This document shows positions 18,707 through 27,206 of a stretch of DNA of 35,593 bases, in pieces; positions within the stretch are counted from its first letter, which is position 1; each line of letters begins with the position of its first letter. This DNA comes from Amoeboaphelidium occidentale (lineage: Eukaryota > Aphelidiomycota > Aphelidea): positions 1 through 35,593 of the forward strand of contig JALGPX010000106.1 in NCBI GenBank assembly GCA_023515795.1, given 5' to 3'. The notes below the pieces were generated by a model. The model searched no databases. It was not told the DNA's origin and saw nothing but the letters and a program-made list of their open reading frames with translations. A program made the position numbers and the translations under genes.

Positions 18707-18878
18707 CAAAGAAAAATGTTTGAGAAGAGCTCAAAGTAAAAAACCATCAGACAAGTTTCGAAAGGAGATCCTGTGCGCTTTCAAGTTATTTGCCGCCGCT
18801 AGTTTGACCAACTTAGCGTGGGAGCGCAATTAGTTGTTTGGGCGACGCAAACTAGGACGCGCTAAAATTTTGTACCAA

Positions 18879-21083
18879 ATGACCGGTGCAAATTTTGTTG
18901 ATCAGGAGAATCTTAGCCTACAAGAGAAAGTTAAAATGTACGAAGCTTGCCTTAATGCGCTACCGGATGCGATAACGATTGAAAACAGGTCTGGCCAGTC
19001 CTTGTTTGTGAATATGGCCGCAAAGAAGCAGCAGGCCGAAGGCAGGCGTATCGAAATTCCTGATCTCGAAGGCTGTATAGATGTCGAGTCTAAATACATA
19101 GTGAAGAGGGTTAGCCCAAACTCAACTCAAGTTTTGAGCAGCGCTTTTGATGAATTGCCACACTTGGTTTGGATCACTGACCCGAATGGCGATGTGACGT
19201 ACTACAATCAAGTCTTTAATGATTACACTGGAACTTATGGCAAAGAAATGCATGGTAAGCGCTGGGACACGATGGTTCATCCTGATGACTTTGAACGCAC
19301 TCGTGAAGAATGGTGTAGAAGCTTGCAAGAAGAAGGAGAACACAACATCGAGCATCGCCTAAGACACCATTCTGGTGATTATCGCTGGTTTCTTACTAGA
19401 GCAAGACCATTGTATGATGCAGATGGACAGTTGATCCACTGGTTTGGTACTTGCACAGATATCCACAAATCCAAAACGATCGAAGAGAGTTTGCGCAAGG
19501 CTGAAGCAGAGTTGACTGCTGAACGAAGAATTCAGGAGTTTATTTTAAATCATCTGCCCGTCGCTGTTCTCATGGCCAAAGCTCCTTCTGGAGAGGTGTT
19601 CTATGCAAATGACAAGTATGCTGATGTATGGAGACAACCATTGGCTCCAATTGCTTCTATTTCTTCTTACAAACAGGTCAAGGCTTTTCGTAAGGATGGT
19701 AGACCATATGAGCCGATGGACTGGCCCCTTGCTCGCTCTGTTGCCACTGGCGAAGTTGTTCGCAATGAAGACACGGATGTTGAATTTTGTGATGGCACTA
19801 GAGGTGTGGTGAGATTGAATTCAAAACCTTTGTATGACGAAAAAGGGAATATTTCCCATGCTGTTGTGATTTGTGAAGATTTGACTGAAAAATTAAAAAT
19901 GGATGAACTTAGAGTTCAGTTGTTGGGCAGAGAACAAGCTGCTTTGGAGTCGAGCAGAATGAAGTCTGAATTCCTAGCCAATATGTCTCATGAAATAAGA
20001 ACTCCTTTAAATGGTATTTTAGGAATGGCTGAGACTCTTAAAGAAGATACATCTCTTTCACCAACTCAATTAAGTTACGTATCTACGATTGCAAAGTCTG
20101 GCCAGTTATTGCTCACTGTGATTAATGACATTCTAGATTTTTCCAAAATTGAAGCTGGAAAATTAGAATTAGAAATGAATCCTGTTGATATTTGTAAATG
20201 TTTGAAATTGGTAGAAAGCCTTATGATGCCTGCTGCTACCAGAAAAGGAATCGACCTTAAATTTAATCTTCCAGAAGTTATGCCACCAAGCCTTATCGGA
20301 GATCGAGATAGAATACAACAGGTTGTATTGAATTTGGTTAGTAACGCCATCAAGTTTACAGAGCGTGGTGGAGTTAAGGTTACGCTAAAATGTGATGTTC
20401 ACCAGAACGAAAACATGGCAGATTTAGAGTTTTGCATTGAAGATACTGGTATTGGTATTCACCCAGATGCTTTAAAACGCCTTTTCCAACCTTTTGTACA
20501 AGCTGATACTTCAACTACAAGAAAATTTGGCGGAACAGGGTTGGGTCTTTCTATCGTTAAATCTTTGGTTGGCTTAATGGGCGGCGAAGTTTTTTCCGAG
20601 CCTAACCCTGGCGGAGGCTCAAAGTTCTGTGTTCACATTAAATTGCCGGTTAGCAATACTACTCCTTTATCGCCCAAAGAAGAAAAGGCTCCTGTATTTA
20701 TGGAACATTTGAAAGTATTGATCGCAGAAGATAATCCTATTAATCAAAAGATTGCTAAGATGGCATTGAACAGGATCAGTATAAAGAATGTTGATGTTGT
20801 AGAAAATGGTCAGCTTGCCGTCGATAAATTTTTTGAACAAGGCGACTATGATGTAGTTTTAATGGATGTTCAAATGCCTATTCTGGATGGCAAAAAGGCA
20901 ACCAAGCTTATTAGATCGAAAGAAGTAGAACTTGGCAGAAAGCGAACTCCTATAATCGCATTAACTGCGAGTGCTCTCAAGACAGATCAGGAAGAATGTC
21001 TTGAAGCTGGAATGGACACACATATCGCTAAGCCTTACAGTCATGTGCAACTAAAAGAAAAATTATCATCAATTATTAACTAG
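18879..21083 (+). CDS. PAS-containing hybrid histidine kinase (copy 1)
   Basis: 734 residues, one exon, no transmembrane segment, so a cytosolic sensor. Domains: N-terminal PAS-like piece (~20-60), PAS-PAC (~88-205, 'LPHLVWITDPNGDVTYYN', 'GDYRWFLTRARPLYD'), a third PAS (~222-345), HisKA with phospho-acceptor H371 in 'FLANMSHEIRTPLNGIL', HATPase (N box 'NLVSNAIKFTE', G1 'EDTGIGI', F/G2 'FQPFVQAD...FGGTGLGLS'), and a receiver (~610-730) with E-D pair 'AEDNP', phospho-acceptor D663 ('VLMDVQMP'), 'ALTAS' and the lysine of 'AKPY'. All catalytic residues are present. It should pass phosphate to an HPt protein, not seen here. The upstream frame is open to 18834 but only via TTG; ATG 18879 is used. 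Confidence 0.95.
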   Translation: MTGANFVDQENLSLQEKVKMYEACLNALPDAITIENRSGQSLFVNMAAKKQQAEGRRIEIPDLEGCIDVESKYIVKRVSPNSTQVLSSAFDELPHLVWITDPNGDVTYYNQVFNDYTGTYGKEMHGKRWDTMVHPDDFERTREEWCRSLQEEGEHNIEHRLRHHSGDYRWFLTRARPLYDADGQLIHWFGTCTDIHKSKTIEESLRKAEAELTAERRIQEFILNHLPVAVLMAKAPSGEVFYANDKYADVWRQPLAPIASISSYKQVKAFRKDGRPYEPMDWPLARSVATGEVVRNEDTDVEFCDGTRGVVRLNSKPLYDEKGNISHAVVICEDLTEKLKMDELRVQLLGREQAALESSRMKSEFLANMSHEIRTPLNGILGMAETLKEDTSLSPTQLSYVSTIAKSGQLLLTVINDILDFSKIEAGKLELEMNPVDICKCLKLVESLMMPAATRKGIDLKFNLPEVMPPSLIGDRDRIQQVVLNLVSNAIKFTERGGVKVTLKCDVHQNENMADLEFCIEDTGIGIHPDALKRLFQPFVQADTSTTRKFGGTGLGLSIVKSLVGLMGGEVFSEPNPGGGSKFCVHIKLPVSNTTPLSPKEEKAPVFMEHLKVLIAEDNPINQKIAKMALNRISIKNVDVVENGQLAVDKFFEQGDYDVVLMDVQMPILDGKKATKLIRSKEVELGRKRTPIIALTASALKTDQEECLEAGMDTHIAKPYSHVQLKEKLSSIIN

Positions 21084-21108: not shown

Positions 21109-21331
21109 AATAATTTTTTGAAGTCGACCCAGGAATTTGGAACAGTCAGTGAACATGTAGAGCGATGACAGTCACAAAGATATCCTGTAAAACATTGATG
21201 GCCCAGTGATGATAATCGAAGCGCTAGGAGATTTTGAACTTATTCAACTTTGAGCAAGCTATGAATGGAAACTTTTGTGACGCTCTTAATTTGAAACTGT
21301 GACGTGCGCTGCGTAAAGCCTTTTCATCCAA

Positions 21332-23536
21332 ATGATCGGCAATGCATCCACTATACACAAGGCCATAGATGAACGGCTAAAGATAGAGCTTTATGAATCC
21401 TGTCTAAATGCCATCCCCGATGCAATTAAAATAGAAGATCCTACGGGTGCCATGGTGTTCTCAAATTCGAGCTATCAGAATCTAGCAAACCGCAAAACTG
21501 TGGATAATATTCCAGTGATCGAAGACTCTTTTGAGTTAGCTTCCGGTTATCGTATGAAAAGGGTAGTTGTTAATACAACAGATGTCTTGCACAAAGCCTT
21601 CGATGTTTTGCCCCACATGGTTTGGATAACCGATGCTGCAGGGCATGTCGAGTACTGTAATCGAAGATTCTATGAATACACCGGCGCAACTTCGATCGAA
21701 GAAGCCAACTACGACTGGAGGCAGGTCCTTCATCCAGACGATTATGATCGCACAGTTGATGTTTGGAATTGCTCGGTTATGAACGCATCGGAATTCGATA
21801 TAGAATACCGCTTGAGAAGTCTATGTGGGGATTATCGTTGGTCCCTTGGGAGAGCAAAGCCTTTATTTGGATCTGATGGAAAATTGACTCAATGGCTCGG
21901 CACCTGTACTGATATTCATGCTTCGAAGACTATCGAAGAAAGCTTGCGTAAAGCGGAAGCAGATCTTACGGCTGAGCGAAGATTATTTGAGACCACCTTA
22001 AATCAGCTTCCTGTTGCTGTTATCGTTGGGAAGGCACCAAGTGGTGATCTGATTTATATTAATGACATCACAACCGATGTTTGGAAAGTGCCGAAATCCG
22101 ATGATTCGGACGAAGACTATATTGCGGACTACAAAGCTTTCCACAAAGACGGAAGAGAATACGAACCAGAAGATTGGCCTTTGTATCGCTCTCTTTTCAA
22201 GGGCGAGATTGTGCGTAACGAGGATACAATGGTTCAGTTTGGGGATGGGACAAGGGGAATTATGAGATTAAGCTCGAAACCCGTCTTCGATGAAATGGGC
22301 AATATAGAACAAGCTATAGTTATTTGTGAAGATGTTACAGAAAAAGTCAAACTGGAAGAGCTCCGTGTTCATTTGTCAAGTCGAGAGCAAGCAGCAATTG
22401 AATCTAGCAGAATGAAATCAGAGTTTTTGGCCAACATGTCTCATGAAATAAGGACACCCTTGAATGGTATCCTTGGAATGGCCGAAGCGTTAAAAGAAGA
22501 CACGTCTCTCTCTTGTGTACAAGTTGACTATGTTTCAACAATTGAAAAATCCGGCAACATGCTTCTCACAGTGATAAACGATATACTGGACTTCTCGAAA
22601 GTGGAAGCTGGAAAGTTGGAATTGGAGAAAACACCGTTTGATGTTACTCAATGCCTTGCTTTGGTCGAGGGACTGATGAAACCCGCGGCATTAAGAAAGG
22701 GAATTGATTTGAATGTTAAGATTTCTGATGACATACCTCCGGCACTCATAGGTGATCCAGATAGGATACAGCAAGTCGTTTTGAACTTGGTTAGTAATGC
22801 TATAAAATTTACAGAAGAAGGTAGTGTCGATGTCACCTTGACATGCGATGTTGATAAGTATGAGCAAATGGCTGCTCTCACAGTTTCTGTAAAAGATACG
22901 GGCATTGGCATTCCTCAAGGAACTTTGAAACGTCTCTTTCAGCCGTTTACGCAAGCTGATACTTCGACTACAAGGAGATTTGGCGGAACTGGATTAGGCC
23001 TCTCTATTGTTAGATCTTTACTCGCGTTGATGGGAGGCACCGTAAAAGCCGATTCAGAACCAGGAAAGGGCTCAACGTTTTGTGTTGAAGTTCCACTGCC
23101 TATAGGAAAATTACCTGTGGAGACGCCTATTGAGGAAAAGAAACAAGTAATTGTGGAGCATCTAAAAATTCTCATGGCCGAAGACAATCCGATAAATCAA
23201 AAGATTGCACTTATGGCATTAACAAGAATAGGTATAAAAAACGTGGATATTGTGGATAACGGCCAACAAGCATATGAAAAGTTTTTTGAAGAAGGTGATT
23301 ATGATGTTGTTCTAATGGATGTACAAATGCCCGTTCTAGACGGAAAGAAAGCTACAAAACTTATAAGATTAAAGGAAGCCGAACTTAACAGAAAACGTAC
23401 TCCTATAATTGCACTGACGGCAAGTGCACTAAAGACTGACCAGGAAGACTGCTTAAAAGTTGGAATGGACACTCACATGGCAAAACCTTACACACATGAT
23501 CAATTGAAACGAAAGATCGCTTCAATTATATCGTAA
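21332..23536 (+). CDS. PAS-containing hybrid histidine kinase (copy 2, tandem paralogue)
   Basis: 734 residues, the same length as the upstream copy and colinear with it: the phospho-acceptor histidine is again residue 371 ('MSHEIRTPLNGIL') and the receiver aspartate again residue 663 ('VLMDVQMP'). Architecture is identical: PAS-like N-terminus, PAS-PAC ('LPHMVWITDAAGHVEYCN', 'GDYRWSLGRAKPLF'), third PAS, HisKA, HATPase ('NLVSNAIKFTE', 'KDTGIGI', 'FGGTGLGLS'), receiver ('ALTAS', 'AKPY'). The kinase and receiver parts are much closer to copy 1 than the first ~60 residues and the third PAS, suggesting different inputs to a shared output. No introns or membrane segments. Confidence 0.95.
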   Translation: MIGNASTIHKAIDERLKIELYESCLNAIPDAIKIEDPTGAMVFSNSSYQNLANRKTVDNIPVIEDSFELASGYRMKRVVVNTTDVLHKAFDVLPHMVWITDAAGHVEYCNRRFYEYTGATSIEEANYDWRQVLHPDDYDRTVDVWNCSVMNASEFDIEYRLRSLCGDYRWSLGRAKPLFGSDGKLTQWLGTCTDIHASKTIEESLRKAEADLTAERRLFETTLNQLPVAVIVGKAPSGDLIYINDITTDVWKVPKSDDSDEDYIADYKAFHKDGREYEPEDWPLYRSLFKGEIVRNEDTMVQFGDGTRGIMRLSSKPVFDEMGNIEQAIVICEDVTEKVKLEELRVHLSSREQAAIESSRMKSEFLANMSHEIRTPLNGILGMAEALKEDTSLSCVQVDYVSTIEKSGNMLLTVINDILDFSKVEAGKLELEKTPFDVTQCLALVEGLMKPAALRKGIDLNVKISDDIPPALIGDPDRIQQVVLNLVSNAIKFTEEGSVDVTLTCDVDKYEQMAALTVSVKDTGIGIPQGTLKRLFQPFTQADTSTTRRFGGTGLGLSIVRSLLALMGGTVKADSEPGKGSTFCVEVPLPIGKLPVETPIEEKKQVIVEHLKILMAEDNPINQKIALMALTRIGIKNVDIVDNGQQAYEKFFEEGDYDVVLMDVQMPVLDGKKATKLIRLKEAELNRKRTPIIALTASALKTDQEDCLKVGMDTHMAKPYTHDQLKRKIASIIS

Positions 23537-25618: not shown

Positions 25619-25665
25619 TACTTTAAGTGAAAGTTCGAAAAAAATTTCTGCAACTTGATCTGATC

Positions 25666-26688
25666 ATGCAAGCATTGAAAGCAGCAACCGCAACCGCTAC
25701 AGCAGCGAGCTCAGCAGGTTCAGCACCAGTCAGGGCCAAAGCGATCAAGAAGAACCCAACAGTTTTCCAGTACTTTGCGCACGTTGGAAGAAACATGTAC
25801 CAAATGATAAATCGAGCTAAAGCTACAGAAGAAGCGCGTAAAGAAGCAAGTAACTCCAAGAAGTTGGTTCTGTGGAATGTGGCTAAAGATAAGCGACAAT
25901 TAAGTTATGATATCAAATTGACTGTTGGCTTGGGAGCGAGTTTGGCATCGATCGGATATCTTGGTGGCGCTTTGCCGTTGATTGCAGTTGCGCCCGCTAT
26001 TCCGGCTGCGTGGTTCATGTCTAACTTCCACCCCGCAATAACGCCATCTTACGGAAGAGCTCTTAATAGGTCGCATCCATATTATAGACAGCCAAAGAAA
26101 AGTTGCTCAGCTGATGTTCTTTTAAATACTTTAAGTCAGACTGAAGTAGCCAAGAAATCAAGAGAGTTTGGCACGCTTCAGAAAGCTCTCGAAAAGTCTG
26201 CGCTTTTATCCGACGATGCTCGATACATTTATTACTTTGTGCTCTCGCTGCAGAAGGATATTTCTCAGCAAATGAAGTTGAAAGATTTACCTCCAGCGGC
26301 GTTAAAAGATCTCCGTTCGCTGTTTAATTTCAGTAGAGTTTCAGTTCCGTATACAAAATTAGGACGCGCCTTAGCCACTCGGAAAGTTGTGCAGAGAATA
26401 TTGACTAATGTTGACACCTGGGACAAGTATTTGGATGACGAAGACTCCAGCGTCGACTTGACAGATGTTTACGAAATTCTTGTTCTCAGGGCTGGCATCG
26501 CAAAGGAATGCATTGATCAGTTGAAAATGTCCAGAAAAGGCTACAAAGAACTCAATGCTTTGTGTGATTTGTATTTGGGATTCAGCAAAAGAATACGCGA
26601 TTTACCAGATGAAGAGAAAATACCGCTTTACATTACTGCCATGACAGTATTGCGAAGCAGGTCTCTTCAAAAGATCAAAAAACAATAA
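25666..26688 (+). CDS. Membrane protein of unknown function, possibly mitochondrial
   Basis: 340 residues from the first ATG (the open frame reaches back to 25627 only through a GTG). The N-terminus is Ala/Thr-rich with spaced Arg/Lys and no acidic residues in its first ~45 positions, like a mitochondrial presequence. A hydrophobic stretch at ~100-135 (including 'GGALPLIAVAPAIPAAWF') could form one long or two short membrane segments. The remaining ~200 residues are soluble-looking and mostly helical. I do not recognise a family. It shares a 47-bp divergent promoter with TSR1, so the two may be co-expressed. The localisation is inference. Confidence 0.75.
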   Translation: MQALKAATATATAASSAGSAPVRAKAIKKNPTVFQYFAHVGRNMYQMINRAKATEEARKEASNSKKLVLWNVAKDKRQLSYDIKLTVGLGASLASIGYLGGALPLIAVAPAIPAAWFMSNFHPAITPSYGRALNRSHPYYRQPKKSCSADVLLNTLSQTEVAKKSREFGTLQKALEKSALLSDDARYIYYFVLSLQKDISQQMKLKDLPPAALKDLRSLFNFSRVSVPYTKLGRALATRKVVQRILTNVDTWDKYLDDEDSSVDLTDVYEILVLRAGIAKECIDQLKMSRKGYKELNALCDLYLGFSKRIRDLPDEEKIPLYITAMTVLRSRSLQKIKKQ

Positions 26689-26755
26689 CTGGCCCTTCGC
26701 TACGGGATTAGTTCAAATAAAACCAAATCTTACTTAGAAGAGTGTTACACGAATC

Positions 26756-26769
26756 GCCGATTTCTCGGC
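26756..26769 (-). other. GAAA-tetraloop hairpin at the stop of Fanzor remnant 1
   Basis: On the minus strand GCCGA-GAAA-TCGGC forms a perfect 5-bp stem capped by a GNRA tetraloop, beginning at the last base of the stop codon of the remnant. TnpB/Fanzor guide RNAs derive from the 3' end and downstream flank of the nuclease gene, so a stable element here could be a guide-RNA relic. That role is inference. Confidence 0.5.
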
Positions 26770-26960
26770 TACGCTGGTGGAGACTGTACAAGTAAATATT
26801 CAAGCATAATCACCTGTCTGATATTTCGTGCAGCGTTGATGTCCCTGTTCCAAACAGTTAAGCTATCTGAATTGCAGATTTTAACCGCCCAAAACTTTGT
26901 CTGTTTCAACTCATGTGAATAGAAAGAACATAAATTTTAGGATTCAGAGCGAGCTAGATA
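26769..26960 (-). pseudogene. Fanzor/TnpB-like (OrfB family) C-terminal remnant 1
   Basis: A minus-strand frame preserves the zinc-ribbon/RuvC-III end of an OrfB-family protein. 'NLCSFYSHELKQTKFWAVKIC' and 'WNRDINAARNI' are readable, the latter the classic RDxNAA motif that supplies the third catalytic Asp of TnpB/Fanzor. The zinc ribbon is damaged: CxxC has become CSFY and the second pair CNSD. An in-frame TAA at 26939-26937 sits just before the first cysteine, where relatives have a Ser-Lys-type context. About 16 residues after the motif the frame ends (TAG at 26771-26769). Nothing upstream of ~26960 is recognisable and a tRNA lies 160 bp beyond, so the N-terminal ~90% is gone. Fanzors are eukaryotic RNA-guided DNA nucleases carried on transposons. 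Confidence 0.75.
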
Positions 26961-26987
26961 TAGTCCCATTAGGAAAGCGCATTCGAA

Positions 26988-27022
26988 CTCCAGCTCGCAG
27001 CATGTAGACGCTTGAGCTGGAG
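26988..27022. repeat. Inverted repeat, 9-bp arms
   Basis: CTCCAGCTC (26988-26996) and GAGCTGGAG (27014-27022) are exact reverse complements with a 17-nt loop. It lies between Fanzor remnant 1 and tRNA-Asn copy 1. Confidence 0.8.
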
Positions 27023-27121
27023 CTCTGCGCGATAAAAAATGGGTTAAAGTTCGATTAAAAAAGATCTTCAAGGGAACACCAGGAAGATATTGAAAAAATA
27101 AGCTCGATGGAAGCAAAAAAG

Positions 27122-27206
27122 CGCTCCATGGTGGGTTCGAACCACCGACCTTCCGGTTTCCCAAAGGATAACAGCCGAACGCGCTAACCAGCTGAGCCAA
27201 TGGAGC
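27122..27206 (-). tRNA. trnN-GTT: tRNA-Asn(GTT), copy 1, with 11-nt intron
   Basis: Reading minus: acceptor GCTCCAT pairs with ATGGAGC, discriminator G. The anticodon stem TTCGG pairs with CCGGA (one T-G), the anticodon loop is CT-GTT-A with the intron TCCTTTGGGAA between positions 37 and 38, the variable loop is AGGTC, and the T arm is GGTGG-TTCGAAC-CCACC. Box A (TGGCTCAGCTGG) and box B are good matches. CCA is not encoded and a T6 run follows as the Pol III terminator (27120-27115). The D stem GCTC/GCGC has a T12-C23 mismatch. Budding yeast tRNA-Asn has no intron. Confidence 0.93.

Follow-up and report, generated by a model that had tools for sequence, protein, structure and literature searches.

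Degenerate Fanzor1 frame in a short repeated element

The window analysed here comprises 35,593 nucleotides of contig JALGPX010000106.1 from Amoeboaphelidium occidentale, a parasite of algae belonging to the aphelids (Aphelida), which are placed next to the root of the fungi. We followed up a minus-strand reading frame at 26936-26772, NLCSFYSHELKQTKFWAVKICNSDSLTVWNRDINAARNIRQVIMLEYLLVQSPPA, which comes after an in-frame TAA at 26939-26937 and carries the string WNRDINAARNI at 26852-26820. The original prediction had taken this frame for the end of a Fanzor nuclease, left behind by a full transposon that inserted and then decayed. As described below, it is most likely a copy of a non-autonomous element derived from a Fanzor1 transposon, similar to a miniature inverted-repeat transposable element (MITE) and of the 'ghost' type, rather than a decayed full transposon.

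Taken alone, the 55-residue frame gave a weak Pfam match (PF07282; 16.6 bits, E 0.0089, under the 26.3-bit cut-off). Its residues are 80% identical to the peptide of another copy (L029; E 5.4e-29), and the DNA around it matches 83 pieces of the window's own genome (G000; 11,314,846 bases in 204 contigs) at 81-100% identity, itself included. A chance resemblance is therefore excluded, and the Fanzor-like nature of the frame is confirmed in spite of the low profile score. The relatives read EPCNLCS...KVCNLDC...VWNRDINAARNI; compared with them, the first cysteine of the window copy is now the stop and the last is now serine, which bears out the predicted loss of two zinc cysteines and gain of a stop. 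With no RuvC-I aspartate, a broken C4 finger, an internal stop and a score under the cut-off, the window copy itself falls outside both the Fanzor1 motif and the Pfam family threshold. It was thus correctly described as Fanzor-derived and no longer coding. Nor is a selected small peptide supported by the coding remnant, in which 14 of 50 private changes are synonymous, in line with the expectation under no selection (p 0.51); of the shared changes, 17 of 46 are synonymous (p 0.054).

The 83 matching pieces came from a genome search with 540 bases around the fragment; from 81 loci, many of them overlapping, 33 distinct copies with both ends present and no N inside were obtained. These copies are 338-478 bp long and their flanks are unrelated. 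In the window the match stops sharply at 27036 and 26684, defining a minus-strand unit that starts with TTTATCGCGCAGAGCTC and finishes with GAAGGGCCAGTTATT. The whole element (26684..27036, minus strand, 353 bp) shares its ends with the other copies, the left being TTTATCGCGC... and the right ...GGGCCAGTTATT; the left-end sequence of the family is TTTATCGCGCAG. The main size classes of about 468, 391 and 353 bp differ by internal deletions just after the NAARNI codons, and the window copy is of the shortest class. The 468-bp form reads ELECECAFLKGVYLARSEPCNLCS..HELKQTKFWAVKVCNLDCLTVWNRDINAARNIRHVFLDLNANGGKRPLAFSRKNRA up to a stop codon, after which some 175 bp are non-coding. Three parts are retained in the element: a hairpin at the left end, the final codons of a Fanzor1 gene, and non-coding DNA on the 3' side, with the left-end sequence occupying the first ~95 bp.

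Read from the left end, the window copy (minus strand throughout, unless stated) begins with the target-like motif TTTAT (27032..27036), a candidate target-adjacent motif (TAM) by analogy; 30 of the 33 copies have it, and TTGAT, TTAAT and TATAT occur once each. The left-end hairpin follows (26970..27031), folding in the window copy at -18.3 kcal/mol as DNA (z -4.0 against shuffles); a hairpin of at least 12 bp is present in 31/33 copies, with a mean z over copies of only -1.9. The remnant of the Fanzor1 C-terminus (26812..26941; zinc ribbon and RuvC-III NRDINAARNI, with the in-frame TAA at 26937-26939 and the cysteine-to-serine change) is 96% identical in DNA to a longer relative, L045. It ends in a deletion scar (26812..26819), where the copy lacks about 106 bp found in the 468-bp form and the flanking blocks, which align to consensus 1-225 and 332-468, overlap by 8 bp. 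The 3' non-coding region up to the right end (26684..26819), the would-be place of a guide (omega) RNA scaffold, is common to L045 and the 33 copies. Within it, on the plus strand, which is the strand of the neighbouring open reading frame (ORF), the element has an AATAAA of its own (26716..26721), 38 nt inside the right end and present in 31/33 copies. The right-end motif TTATT (26684..26688) is found in 33/33 copies. Its plus-strand reading, AATAA, holds the TAA (26686-26688) of the neighbouring ORF (25627..26688, plus strand; 353 codons between stops). The ORF points towards the element with its 3' end, and its stop codon is thereby supplied by the right end. This ORF is likely a gene; no Pfam family matched it, and a homologue search testing for truncation returned only the ORF itself.

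Terminal inverted repeats (TIRs) such as those of SPu-1 were not found, the left end reading CGCGCAG and the right end, read inwards, CTGGCCC. Pairing between the segments TCGCGCAG and CTGTAGCGA requires a gap, and CTGTAGCGA stops about 13 bp short of the element end (read by eye); in Helitron2 elements, the 3' member of the asymmetric terminal inverted repeats lies 20-30 bp from the end. Outside the ends, target-site duplications (TSDs) of 3-8 bp were seen in 0/33 copies and of 2 bp in 4/33.

The longest relative seen in this family, L045, has a 327-codon frame with the same right end and is truncated at its 5' side. Solved Fanzor1 structures are its best matches, and it combines a PF07282 score above the cut-off with a Fanzor1-like fold. 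It also carries the Fanzor1 motif of Bao and Jurka, D-X(125,275)-[TS][TS]-X-X-C4 zinc finger-X(5,50)-RD, with LDPGR at 96, TSKLCSFC at 258 and RDINAA at 290, if the C4 pattern is relaxed. Positions 319-468 of the element consensus are common to L045 at 96% identity. For this element, then, both ends are fixed, 33 or more complete copies exist, most of the nuclease gene is missing through a common internal deletion, and the right end is shared with L045. Insertion of a full Fanzor transposon that then decayed to its C-terminal end would account for the stop and the lost cysteines, but it is very unlikely given that 33 copies, set in unrelated flanks, repeat one unit of ~353-468 bp with the same two ends and a common 5' junction. 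The DNA that inserted here was most likely a non-autonomous derivative of 350-470 bp from the outset, with two ends of its own that all copies have in common.

The expectation of intact kin elsewhere in the genome held in part. Kin are abundant, with 90 PF07282 matches, 84 of them over the cut-off (a count that includes duplicates from assembly joins), but no intact parent of this family was found in the genome. An apparent '998-codon' frame on contig C125 was rejected as such a parent, as it spans a 2,635-base run of N.

Insertion behind genes and the AATAAA hexamer

Positions relative to genes were compared for 23 clean, independent insertions, which have distinct right-end flanks and are free of N for 400 nt on the right-end side; the other 10 of the 33 were dropped because of an N within that distance or a right-end flank already seen. 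Seventeen of the 23 lie antisense within 80 nt of an ORF stop codon, compared with one on the left-end side (p 1.4e-4). The ORF on the right-end side points its 3' end at the element in 20 of 22 cases, the element being antisense to it (p 1.2e-4), and none of the 23 insertions falls inside a called ORF. When the ORF threshold was set at 100, 150, 200 or 250 codons, the near-stop count was 17, 16, 14 and 14 of 23, compared with 4-10% for random non-ORF positions. Before cleaning, the right-end-side ORF faced the element with its 3' end in 20/31 cases and ran into it in 9/31, and on the left-end side it was the 5' end in 23/27.

This location matches that of the genome's AATAAA hexamers. Of 61 element-free ORFs, 17 have AATAAA no further than 70 nt from the stop, 1 has CATAAA, 3 have GATAAA and none has TATAAA; AATAAA is found at 18/63 3' ends versus 3/69 5' ends, and its density in coding sequence is 0.059 per kb, that of TTTATT being 0.78 per kb. 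Since it is concentrated behind stops and rare in coding sequence, AATAAA is likely the polyadenylation (poly(A)) signal of this genome, as judged by position. Its median distance to the stop is 15.5 nt (20 ORFs), that of the insertions 22 nt (p 0.42). Likewise, non-ORF AATAAA hexamers have a same-strand stop within 80 nt in 20 of 38 cases, and the insertions are alike (p 0.11). The insertions are unlike ATAAA (23/87 near a stop; p 5e-5), CATAAA (0/12) and TATAAA (0/22). Copies of the element thus lie mostly antisense within 80 nt behind ORF stops, as AATAAA hexamers do.

We take TTTATT as the most fitting reading of the target, both element ends having TTAT, either through duplication or because the element carries it. 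This reading rests on the base that would precede ATAAA if the target were TTTAT only: it is A in 3 of 17 near-stop insertions, as opposed to 20 of the 23 near-stop background sites (p 1.5e-5). A target of TTTAT alone, in the manner of IS200/IS605 elements, with the antisense gene-end position arising purely from selective loss of other insertions, would fit the variation of the left-end TTTAT (3/33) beside an invariant right-end TTATT, as well as the neutral evolution of the copies and the lack of insertions in ORFs. We nevertheless consider it unlikely in view of this base comparison, of a location unlike that of ATAAA sites and of the failure to find a Y1 transposase in the genome.

Our preferred explanation is that of a Fanzor1-derived miniature element that inserts at the poly(A) signal and brings a replacement AATAAA, and on the whole we hold it to be probable. 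The insertion site would be TTTATT, which reads AATAAA on the strand of the gene and would in most cases be a gene's poly(A) signal; the junction would then read T-TTAT on the left and TTAT-T on the right. The antisense AATAAA 38 nt inside the right end would then take over polyadenylation of the host gene in place of the split signal, so that the insertion would do little harm. The element would have to be moved by a transposase supplied in trans. A preference for the hexamer combined with loss of gene-damaging insertions may be enough to explain the gene-end location, and an evolved preference for gene ends is not required.

Several points weigh against this explanation. The ORF calls are unvalidated and the assembly contains many faulty joins. 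Six of the 23 insertions lack a called stop within 80 nt, AATAAA occurs within 70 nt in only about 28% of the element-free ORFs, and the poly(A) role of the hexamer is read from position only. In six of the 17 near-stop cases, stop codon and junction hexamer overlap; joined sites contain AATAAA by construction, and the other 11 stops are independent of it. An empty site was not found in the same genome, 14 joined sites having returned only their own halves; a flank-repeat search for empty sites in that genome also found none. The internal AATAAA (31/33) is not clearly more conserved than its surroundings, and its retention is no proof of selection because a per-site identity of ~97% would keep it in most copies anyway. 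Finally, the genome gave no match to the Y1 transposase profile PF01797 (control positive in 5/14), none to the tyrosine recombinase profile PF00589 (control positive in 14/14, although eukaryotic Cryptons may escape this profile) and none to PF14214 (Helitron_like_N), for which all controls were silent.

The insertion sites of Fanzor elements, and the tolerance of a small, dense genome for many copies, are unsettled matters. If true, a poly(A)-signal target with a built-in replacement would amount to a eukaryotic safe-harbour strategy. We propose tentatively, as a possibility somewhat short of even, that hexamer, orientation and cargo together make up such a strategy, and that Fanzor proteins made elsewhere may hold the copies in place via right-end guide RNAs. 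For this unstudied aphelid Fanzor1 clade, the predicted target motif is TTTAT/TTTATT.

Known systems, guide RNA and movement

TnpB-only elements of the IS200/IS605 type and their miniature derivatives have a fixed left-end motif, a subterminal hairpin and no TSD visible outside their ends. The aphelid element has the same kind of left motif and hairpin and likewise lacks an outside TSD, but differs in that no Y1 transposase was found in its genome and that the evidence on its target points to a hexamer across the junction.

Its closest counterparts are the Fanzor 'ghost' loci of Spizellomyces punctatus. As set out by Saito et al. (2023, PMC10432273), these likewise consist of two ends without a Fanzor gene in many copies, with a conserved 3' region common to Fanzor-bearing elements, a conserved left-end motif and a transposase that was not found. 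The same combination is seen here: left and right ends in 33 copies, only the last codons of the gene, and a 3' region like that of the Fanzor-bearing L045. Unlike the Spizellomyces loci, the aphelid element has no 30-nt terminal inverted repeats, keeps a remnant of the C-terminus and occupies AATAAA sites behind genes, and its guide-RNA activity is putative. It is a ghost-like Fanzor1 element with evidence for a poly(A)-signal target.

Further likenesses come from Bao and Jurka (2013, PMC3627910). The non-autonomous Fanzor1/Helitron2 elements CRe-1,2,3 of Chlamydomonas share a left-end hairpin, a T-rich target, internal deletions and a lack of ordinary TIRs or TSDs. Their target is TTTT whereas here it is TTTATT; asymmetric inverted repeats are only suggestive here, and RepHel was not found by a profile search whose controls were silent. 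By analogy with that account, the left hairpin and T-rich target may recall Helitron2. The MCi-5 Fanzor1 elements of Mucor also lack TIRs and have an A+T-rich hexamer at both ends (putative TSD ATTTAT), but the hexamer is different, the elements are larger and some carry a Harbinger-type transposase gene (PMC3627910). Among the literature matches listed, which cover the field in part, there was no earlier report of a poly(A)-signal Fanzor target or of a target motif for an aphelid Fanzor1.

The ghost loci raise the question of guide RNAs. The copies might be working loci in which the right end and its flank are transcribed as a guide for a Fanzor made elsewhere, which would cut empty alleles and so maintain the element at its sites; this idea is compatible with insertion at the poly(A) signal. 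The portion of the element that has been kept is precisely the 3' region and right end common with L045, functional omega RNAs are known from ghost loci in Spizellomyces (PMC10432273), and the last 149 nt of one copy fold at z -3.5. Against this, the last 92 nt have a mean fold z of -1.1 over the 33 copies, weaker than the coding control at -1.8; the window copy reaches -1.75, and no covariation was seen (1 of 27 pairs, term -0.05). An omega-RNA structure at the right end is thus unsupported by fold statistics or covariation across these copies, and we regard working guide loci as doubtful.

With respect to movement, profile searches for Y1, Helitron_like_N, resolvase, tyrosine recombinase and PIF1 gave no candidate transposase linked to the element. 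PIF1 helicase had two matches in the genome. The only resolvase-profile match, a 188-codon frame at C172:89432-89881, is a candidate IS607-type transposase.

Several loci have two or three right ends in a row, which at first sight resembles a CRISPR-like array of scaffolds and guides. Such an array is hardly credible: a single N separates the right ends in all 11 loci that have several of them, and the left piece overlaps the right. The tandem arrangements were therefore read as unmerged contig overlaps and rejected as genuine arrays. Over all loci, 44 of 50 single-N joins have a similar stretch on both sides and 6 do not, some joins being counted twice where loci overlap. Unmerged overlaps of this kind also disrupt reading frames and make Fanzor counts too high. 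The copies L015 and L020 have 870 bp of right flank in common but not the left, again pointing to a misjoin or a duplication. Joins of this single-N type, their overlaps unmerged, occur at many loci in repeat-rich places, among them L011, L013, L049, L050 and L052, and mobile-element counts and open frames in this assembly need careful reading.

Other Fanzor families and neighbouring features

A tRNA close to the fragment had been pointed out in the original prediction. It is real (Rfam; 27122-27206, minus strand) and lies ~160 bp from the interval first proposed and ~85 bp from the element's end. ARAGORN missed it in bacterial mode and found it, with an intron and an uncertain anticodon assignment, once introns were allowed. 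Since tRNAs occur at only 3 of the 33 insertion loci (~3.3 kb each), its nearness looks incidental, and tRNA targeting was rejected.

Longer open frames exist in other Fanzor families of this genome. One of them, 629 codons in L047 (G000:C183:30500-35500), has single-N joins nearby and a zinc-knuckle-like N-terminal stretch in the adjacent frame; a kinase-like ORF points its 3' end towards the 3' side of this frame. A second, TnpB/Fanzor2-like family (L001-L008, on C71, C52, C37, C12, C54 and C138) reads FDRDMNAARNI and matches PF01385 and PF07282. Its right end, ...GCTGCGCGTCGGCTTGACAAGCCGGCTTGCGGCAACCTTAG, which lies about 95 nt past the stop, is rich in hairpins and strongly conserved, and three of its members (L001, L003 and L008) are also antisense within ~65 nt of an ORF 3' end.

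At G000:C185:10125-10238, inside a 3,456-codon frame, the Fanzor tail peptide is matched at 58% over 38 residues, which may be an N-run artefact or a fusion. The left flank of two copies (L075:1241-1500, G000:C194:52572-52831) belongs to a different repeat, for which there were 18 matches; 11 of these stop exactly 42 bp short of the element. Elsewhere in the window, 18834-21080 and 21317-23533 encode two adjacent hybrid histidine kinases with PAS, HisKA, HATPase and response regulator domains.
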